From positions 558,001 through 622,000 of the forward strand of contig BEIE01000001.1 in the NCBI GenBank assembly GCA_002898255.1: a stretch of DNA of 64,000 nucleotides, written 5' to 3'. The DNA is from a bacterium HR28. Lineage in GTDB: Bacteria; Chloroflexota; Chloroflexia; Thermomicrobiales; Thermomicrobiaceae. The notes beneath the pieces are model-generated. The model was not told where the DNA came from and did no database searches. It was given only the letters and a program-made list of their open reading frames with translations. This document shows positions 47,282-56,155 of this stretch, in pieces. The first letter of the stretch is position 1; each line of letters starts with the position of its first letter. Position numbers and translations under genes: made by a program.

Positions 47282-47357
47282 TGGCACCCCCGGCAGGATT
47301 CGAACCTGCGACATGCGGCTTAGAAGGCCGCCGTTCTATCCACTGAACTACGGGGGC
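47282..47357 (-). tRNA. tRNA-Arg (anticodon UCU)
   Basis: The minus strand folds as a complete 76-base cloverleaf. The acceptor stem is GCCCCCG with CGGGGGU, the D-arm GTTC/GAAC, the anticodon stem GCGGC/GCCGC with loop CTTCTAA (anticodon TCT), and the T-arm GCAGG/CCTGC with TTCGAAT. The CCA end is encoded. It reads AGA codons, which are rare in this GC-rich genome. Confidence 0.97.
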
Positions 47358-53610: not shown

Positions 53611-53968
53611 GTGGGTTGCACACGGGAGGTACCTCGGCAGCGTGGGGTAGGCGCCGGACTTTCCGTTTCTCGCGTCCGCTCACAGAAGCTCGTCCACAAT
53701 GGGAGAGGGGGATTGGCACCCCTGCCGATGAGCCCACGCCAATCGTGTCTGGCCGCAGGAGATAAACGGGGCAAGGCAGTCCTAGGGAGTATGGCGGCTG
53801 ACGACAAGCGTGGAACGAGACTGCGCCAGCGTGGTGAAGACACTGCCAGATCCTTGGACTGGAATAGCCGCTTGCCAGAAAGGCTTGCGCATCATGTGCG
53901 GACGGGTGCACTGAGTTGCGAGGTGACGACCCCGGGCAGCAGAAGTGGCGAGTTTGCCATGTAGGGGG
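53611..53968. other. Gap between the ROK promoter and the RNA-gene promoter
   Basis: These 358 bases hold no supported gene. The minus-strand 244-residue frame covering 53573-54307 crosses the ROK promoter and the structured RNA and is rejected. Confidence 0.5.
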
Positions 53969-53997
53969 TTGACAGCAAGGCACAATTGAGGTATCCT
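53969..53997 (+). promoter_or_regulatory. Strong vegetative promoter of the structured RNA gene
   Basis: A perfect TTGACA is followed after exactly 17 bases by TATCCT. The predicted transcription start (7 bases on, about 54004) coincides with the first base of the closing helix of the RNA. Confidence 0.85.
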
Positions 53998-54003
53998 GAA
54001 GAT

Positions 54004-54212
54004 GCGATCCCGACGAGTTCTCGTCGGACCGTCGCGAGAGCACCCGAGGAATCGGGTTGCTTGTTCCGGCTCCGATAGCCACCTGTCGGAGTTGCTCGCG
54101 AAAGCGGGCACCAGGGCTGTTCACCAGCCGGACCGGCGCGAGCCGGGAAGGGGGTGAATCTGAGACTGGCGGACACGCGCCGGGAGGCGAACGGCTCGTC
54201 GGGGTCGCTTTT
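54004..54212 (+). ncRNA. Candidate structured non-coding RNA of unknown class
   Basis: The RNA would start at about 54004. Its first 14 bases (54004-54017) pair with 54195-54208 over 14 base pairs, one of them a U-G, and the closing helix is followed at once by TTTTG. Inside lie further helices. One is 54029-54035 with 54187-54194, with one bulged base. Another is 54039-54047 with 54052-54061, closed by a GGAA loop. A third is 54093-54099 with 54104-54110, closed by a GAAA loop. A further 8-bp helix joins 54133-54140 and 54176-54183. A helix of about eight pairs, 54063-54071 with 54126-54133, competes with a shorter hairpin at 54115-54129. No ribosome binding site or sensible frame is seen. 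It lacks the RNase P A-C-A-G-A-A core, tmRNA ends, and the SRP domain IV motif, and it is multibranched unlike 6S RNA. Confidence 0.6.
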
Positions 54213-54988
54213 GTCGTGAGTTTCCTCGGCGCATGCATGCTTCCTCGTCCATTGCGAAAGCTGCGTGCGTATCGTCGAATGTCAGTTCCGCGAAGTCGAT
54301 TGCGCACTCTTCTGCCAGTCGTCCTTCCTACACAGGGTCCGGGGTGACGTTCCGGTGCGGCACGCCTCCTCTCGACGTGACCTCGCCGAATCTGACTACT
54401 CCTAGGCCTCCATGAGGGGGATTGCCCTTCTGACGAAGCAGGCTGAGTAGGTTAGTGACCGCGGCGAAAGCGTCGATCAAGGGCAGTGGACGCCGCTCCC
54501 GATCATCTCGGTGCTCCTGCCGCGATACCCTCGTGTCATGCGTGACCGGGCCGGCGTGTTTCAGCTCCTCGCGACTTCAGGGGCCGCGGCCTCTGTGCCT
54601 GAGCTGAGGCTGTGGGAAGGTTGAGGACGACAATACTGTACCTCGGATATGAAAAGTAGGATCCTTCACCCCCAATCGTGCAAGGACGAAAACGGCGAGA
54701 TCGCGGTATTGCATCGCCGGGTGATCAACCGGAGACTTCGCGTTGTTCCCCCTCTCAGCTAACCTGTGGGATCCAAGAAAGTTTCGGATGATGAAGAGTC
54801 CTTGTAGTGGAATCTCTCCAGCCGGAGTCATTGGCCCGTCCTGGACACAGTAGGCAGTATTTGTGCTACTATTCCGCAGACAGGAGAAATGTCCGCTACT
54901 TCATGCACCCACCTTCCTCAGGTGACTTGAGTGTGGCCATATGGTGAGCTGAATCAGCTGTAGAGACTGCTTCCGGCAGATATTCCTT
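54213..54988. other. Long gap between the RNA gene and the protoglobin
   Basis: About 780 bases without a supported gene, promoter or clear terminator. The minus strand must contain the 3' end of the protoglobin transcript. Frames on both strands look random, and codon third positions lack the GC bias of neighbouring genes. Confidence 0.5.
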
Positions 54989-55657: not shown

Positions 55658-56155
55658 GAGGCAAGTCGCAGGGAGAAGCGGCCCGTCGCCTGGCTCTGTG
55701 TGCCAAGCTAGCAGTGACCATCAAAAAAGTGGCGGGACGTTCGTTTCTCACTCTCGACCTGCTGTCTCTGCTTCATGCGTAATCTCTCGCGAGTATCGCT
55801 GGATCGTGAGGGGGGTAATACTCCAGGGGTCAGGAGGTTACGATAGCCAATTTCTATGGCACTGGTATGCTCTTGGGAAGAGACTTCGATCATTGTTGTC
55901 CTGCCGAATACGAGGAAACTCCCCCCCTTGCGCCTGCCAATACACTTGGAGCATAATATCTGGCACGAACTAACAAAGCTTCTTCCATATAAGGTGCACT
56001 AGTAGCGCTATCGTGCGAAGGTAATACACGTATGTGTTTGTGAAAACTCGGTGGTCTTCTTTGTGTGTCATACGCTTGCCGGTTGATGGGCCTCGCCGGG
56101 TAGGCCGGTGTTATGATCCTTCGCGAATCGGATGGTGGACGAAGGTGAGACCAAC
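55658..56155. other. Relatively AT-rich gap with a likely promoter at its right end
   Basis: No gene is supported here. The right end contains an extended -10 (TG-T-TATGAT at 56109-56117) without a good -35, and a GGCC...GGCC inverted repeat just before it, close to the coiled-coil gene start. Base composition is lower in GC than the flanks. Confidence 0.5.

Follow-up and report, generated by a model that had tools for sequence, protein, structure and literature searches.

6S RNA (RF00013) is a stand-alone RNA of ~150–200 nt with its own promoter, paired ends and sometimes two paralogues, and bacterial SRP RNA is likewise structured and stand-alone with paired ends. In the Ro-associated Y RNAs, the two ends of the molecule pair in a conserved closing helix that is followed by U residues. 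The raiA-motif RNA, which is presumably similar in size to the RNA considered here, was described from Bacillota and Actinomycetota. Like the present RNA, it was found by comparative genomics as a conserved structured noncoding RNA ahead of its role (ModT; PMC11706538). The candidate RNA at 54004–54212 of the window (the whole stretch of 64,000 nucleotides that was analyzed) has the listed features in common with 6S and SRP RNA, and its closing helix of both ends followed by U residues is a lead toward the Y RNAs. It differs from the rod-like 6S RNA in being multi-branched, in having no match to the 6S model, and in belonging to a family found beside a separate 6S gene in several relatives, and from the raiA-motif RNA in its range and in matching no Rfam model. 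On the comparisons below, 54004–54212 is very probably the gene of a stand-alone structured RNA. The first-pass annotation had proposed a stand-alone regulatory RNA with its own promoter, paired ends and perhaps a switch; homologues, compensatory changes and the Rfam searches bear out the stand-alone structured RNA with its promoter and paired ends, and not the switch.

The promoter elements TTGACA (53969–53974) and TATCCT (53992–53997), separated by a 17-base spacer, were confirmed in the window sequence. This promoter-like site scores 10 of 12, and there are 3 such sites in 2.5 kb against 0.6 expected. TTGACA sits 35–37 bases before the RNA 5′ end in the homologues, a spacing obtained with a search pattern that itself demanded TTGACA; in five homologues identified by an RNA model without a promoter requirement, the same place holds TTGACA in four and TTGACG in one. 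Because homologues carry TTGACA at the matching place, comparison supports the start at ~54004 that had been predicted from the promoter. The spacer between the −35 and −10 elements, here (53969–53997) and in homologous promoters, often contains GGCAC-N4-GTGC, either as an inverted repeat or as part of a layout general to strong promoters. No reading frame had been noted, and none was seen to be kept among the homologues, which differ by single-base insertions and deletions. ARAGORN identified no tRNA or tmRNA at the RNA gene, the sole tRNA in the window being at 47282–47357. The features of the locus are as follows.

53969–53997, plus strand: promoter (TTGACA, 17-base spacer containing GGCAC, TATCCT), at a near-fixed distance upstream of homologues
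54004–54212, plus strand: predicted RNA gene, ~209 nt, from the predicted 5′ end to the U-tract (fold and homologues)
54004–54019, plus strand: P1 closing helix, 5′ strand (fold; compensatory changes)
54010–54027, plus strand: alternative 5′ hairpin CCGACGA/TCGTCGG, a probable co-transcriptional intermediate
54029–54035, plus strand: P2 inner helix, 5′ strand, CCG at 54029–54031 and CGC at 54033–54035 (compensatory changes)
54038–54062, plus strand: arm 1, hairpin with GGAA tetraloop at 54048–54051 (fold; compensatory changes within the genus)
54065–54068, plus strand: stem enclosing arms 2–4, 5′ strand, partner 54170–54173 (fold)
54069–54092, plus strand: arm 2, hairpin with loop CCAC at 54079–54082 (fold; compensatory changes in three pairs)
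54093–54110, plus strand: arm 3, hairpin with GAAA tetraloop at 54100–54103 (fold)
54111–54169, plus strand: arm 4, long, with a 3×3 internal loop GGA/GAA and a GCGA tetraloop at 54138–54141 (fold)
54146–54158, plus strand: GGAAGGGGGTGAA, complementary to the anti-Shine-Dalgarno end of 16S rRNA, a lead (duplex energy)
54170–54173, plus strand: stem enclosing arms 2–4, 3′ strand (fold)
54177–54183, plus strand: P2, 3′ strand, GCG at 54177–54179 and CGG at 54181–54183 (compensatory changes)
54193–54208, plus strand: P1, 3′ strand, GGCTCGTCGGGGTCGC (fold; compensatory changes)
54209–54212, plus strand: U-tract after P1, the two together read as a putative intrinsic terminator

When folded as RNA, 54004–54212 reached −122.5 kcal/mol with a z-score of −6.46, and none of 200 shuffled sequences folded equally well; the opposite strand is weakly structured (z −2.5). 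Four members of the genus gave z-scores between −6.5 and −7.0, and one Sphaerobacter member gave −5.2. The pairing of the first 14 bases with the end (54004–54017/54195–54208) is present as annotated, and the best fold lengthens it to 16 bp, so that P1 consists of the first and last 16 bases of the RNA, with TTTT (54209–54212) directly after it. Both the GGAA-capped (54038–54062) and the GAAA-capped (54093–54110) helices of the first-pass annotation are part of the supported fold. The complementarity of a third, 8-bp helix (54133–54140/54176–54183) exists, but this helix was rejected as part of the supported fold, in which its strands are used by the GCGA-capped hairpin and by P2, the latter with compensatory changes.

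A DNA search of the window's own genome returned, as a convincing match, the RNA gene itself alone. In the genus, full-length or nearly full-length matches that include the promoter were found in three other members and a partial match at a contig end in a fourth, and a weak match in genome G015 marks a complete homologue that has TTGACA, starts with the same sequence, shares the 3′ end and adopts a similar multi-branched fold. A covariance model built from four genus members (R1) detects the RNA in nearly all genomes of the window's family f1, which includes Thermomicrobium, Sphaerobacter and Thermalbibacter, with few exceptions. With a model of 20 sequences whose structure is P1 and P2 alone (R2), strong scores were obtained in 18 of the 21 genomes of f1, the remaining three being 54%, 62% and 78% complete, and the RNA was found in four of the five genomes of a second family, f2. 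Conservation in close relatives, which the annotation had left to be checked, thus extends through the genus to both families. Promoter, start, P1, P2, multi-branched core and U-tract are common to the homologues, and the predicted length in Sphaerobacter is ~221 nt. Searches of the order's three remaining families and the rest of the class (158 genomes altogether), and of 400 genomes sampled from the phylum, gave no convincing match; the strict filters of these larger runs may have passed over distant relatives. Weak matches at class and phylum level (e.g., G023, G058, G186 and G500) were left uncounted, being partial or devoid of the promoter and closing helix where inspected.

Using TTGACA and CCGANGAGT alone as a 5′ pattern, we located 24 sites among 21 genomes, two in one genome being common; the reversed pattern matched twice in 21 genomes. 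Most Thermomicrobium, Sphaerobacter and second-family genomes have two sites, the second sites being complete RNAs of like architecture, and genera g3, g4 and g5 have a single copy each. The second paralogue of the window's genome lies outside the window (G000:C1:1038212–1038412). Neither this paralogue nor the spread over the family is visible from the window itself. The paralogues of two Sphaerobacter genomes (L068 and L082) are 8.4 kb apart and flank the same block of genes, among them 2-oxoacid dehydrogenase and pyruvate kinase genes. The neighborhood of the RNA is constant within the window's genus, and across genera there is no fixed neighbor gene; the genes downstream vary and occur in either orientation. 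Three genomes, from two families, have a gene resembling RsmI, a 16S rRNA methyltransferase, in the vicinity of the RNA (L068:3959–4954, L076:8837–9667 and L080:6910–7953).

Across 20 sequences, 91.7% of the P1 and P2 cells are paired, and 8 pairs comprising 41 cells have changed on both sides. In 500 shuffles neither this number of cells nor the covariation score was ever reached, and 2–4 pairs remained when the partners were slid. Compensatory changes occur in five of the seven pairs of P2; P1 varies little, and its covariation comes from few positions. Within separate groups folded on their own, pairs with double changes numbered 7 for the window's paralogue (4 sequences), 14 for the second paralogue (5 sequences) and 20 for genus g5 (5 sequences). 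The structures were derived in part from the very sequences in which the pairs were counted, which biases the counts in their favor; two things nevertheless speak for genuine pairing, the result of the slid controls and the consistency from group to group. Compensatory changes, named beforehand as the support to look for, thus back P1 and P2 in comparisons between genera and the arms in comparisons inside three groups, and in the arms of the multi-branched core the sequence varies and the pairing is kept. The P1 core, CCGAnGAGU/GGCUCGUCGG, is nearly invariant even where pairing alone would permit change, which suggests that its sequence is recognized.

The first-pass annotation had also pointed out that TCGTCGG occurs at 54021 and 54196, either copy being able to pair with 54010–54016, and had read this as two possible exclusive folds, perhaps forming a ligand- or temperature-dependent switch. 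The repeats and their complementarity are there, but the two-fold alternative is not supported. Forcing the local hairpin (54010–54027) made the overall fold 12.4 kcal/mol worse at 37 °C (equilibrium probability 4e-9), and the penalty is ~5–8 kcal/mol at 60–80 °C, the alternative being less stable at 37, 60, 70 and 80 °C. When growing prefixes were folded, the local hairpin formed first and was displaced at ~200 bases. Apart from a weaker version in a sister genus, it is confined to a single paralogue of one genus, and most homologues cannot form it. A two-state switch was rejected on these energy differences and on the lack of conservation; the hairpin is probably at most a co-transcriptional intermediate of one paralogue, displaced once the 3′ end is made.

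No family of Rfam 15 matched the window RNA at the gathering cut-off, a lax scan of 401 bases (53900–54300) gave a chance isrB score alone (12.8 bits, E 9), and the surroundings of the homologues yielded no match other than an unrelated fluoride riboswitch. These searches agree with the annotation's judgment that known classes do not fit. In the open-access literature, with its partial coverage, no report of this RNA was found for Thermomicrobium, Sphaerobacter or Chloroflexi. SRP RNA (RF01854) was ruled out, since the sole match to the SRP model in the window's own genome is a separate gene (G000:C5:97978–98241), and identity with Y RNA was rejected on the absence of the partner protein Ro (TROVE, PF05731) from all genomes of the two RNA-carrying families.

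A 6S RNA that has diverged strongly and binds RNA polymerase would also be stand-alone and ~200 nt long with paired ends and two paralogues, and some bacteria do have two 6S genes (PMC7726162). With the Rfam 6S model and a 6S core pattern, moreover, no 6S gene was detected in Thermomicrobium, g3 and g4 (Thermalbibacter's genus and one further genus), with the exception of a doubtful pattern match with one mismatch in G018. Genomes in which 6S went undetected are G000–G003, G005, G008, G009, G013 and G016, though most of the order has 6S. Yet Sphaerobacter, genus g5, most of family f3 and part of f2 do have a separate 6S gene that the Rfam model recognizes, and this coexistence with the window RNA family in several relatives disfavors homology. 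The 6S model is also silent on the RNA itself, matching neither in the own-genome search at E 10 nor in the lax scan of 53900–54300, and where 6S RNA has a rod with a central bubble, the fold here has a multi-way junction. We therefore regard a divergent 6S RNA as very unlikely; that the RNA took over the 6S job in the genera without 6S is possible.

As a structured, promoter-proximal element with a terminator-like end and an alternative 5′ pairing, the RNA might instead be the leader of a downstream gene, acting in cis as a riboswitch or attenuator. The neighboring genes, however, change between genera and lie in either orientation, the next same-strand gene of the window that recurs in relatives begins only at 56132, and the local alternative fold is not conserved; the change of neighbors in particular argues against a cis-regulatory role, which we consider highly improbable. 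Paired ends can also resemble the terminal inverted repeats of a miniature mobile element, and there is more than one related copy per genome; an origin of this kind is extremely improbable given that the own genome has two divergent copies only, that the neighborhood is the same within the genus, that the promoter keeps a near-fixed distance and that the internal helices show compensatory changes. A ribosome-directed RNA, binding 30S subunits through the strand 54146–54158, is a less remote alternative, though an unlikely one. The duplex of 54146–54162 with the 16S rRNA end has an energy of −19.0 kcal/mol, as good as in 1 of 100 shuffles, and in three genera such energies are reached by 0–8 of 100 shuffles; the motif GGRGGUGA is kept in both Thermomicrobium paralogues and in two sister genera (g3 and g4), and the RsmI-matching genes fit the same picture. 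Against this, the motif is absent from g5 and the second family, inconsistent in Sphaerobacter, and for the most part taken up by base pairs in the predicted fold.

A stand-alone RNA that is trans-acting and stable, perhaps as an RNP scaffold, is the most likely reading, though its confinement to two families and its divergent interior would be compatible with a weakly constrained RNA as well. P1 joins the opening 16 bases of the RNA to its closing 16, and the U-tract comes immediately after it, so that both ends would be set by start and termination and locked into a helix: P1 with the U-tract would end transcription, and the RNA would be sealed from the moment it is made and should be stable. 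The simplest reading would be a trans-acting, protein-bound RNA. More tentatively, the P1 core may be bound by a putative dedicated protein, the arms serving as RNP scaffold or regulator, and in three genera the strand complementary to the anti-Shine-Dalgarno sequence may add a contact with the small ribosomal subunit.

The class search also matched an 83-base stretch of the own genome (G000:C1:448377–448459; L125:1378–1460, minus strand), with a second copy at G000:C2:310409–310499. This ~80-nt RNA, which matches no Rfam family, usually has two copies per Thermomicrobium genome, one or two in g3 and one in a Sphaerobacter; it folds as a rod and has the P1 core CCCGACG/CGTCGGG in common with the window RNA. 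Its promoter in g3 resembles that of the larger RNA (TTGACA, often with GGCAC in the spacer), and in Thermomicrobium (L151 and relatives) an operator-like conserved dyad of the type TGTTGCG-TTTTT-GTAACG lies ~45–60 bases upstream. It is a speculative and rather unlikely idea that the ~190–285-nt and ~80-nt families form one terminator-sealed class with a shared RNA-binding protein, a new RNP system that possibly replaces 6S in the genomes that seem to have lost it.

The RNA is new as a family of sequence and structure, with no Rfam match and with 6S and SRP RNA as separate genes; its general kind, the stable, structured, stand-alone bacterial RNA, is already known. Few RNAs of such size are kept over whole bacterial families, and several of those studied have proved important (6S, SRP, tmRNA and raiA-motif RNA). 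The RNA has a promoter, two paralogues and precisely predicted ends, and covariation supports it, so that experiments can start on it in a phylum that has been little studied, and it raises the testable question of what a clade apparently without 6S RNA uses instead.
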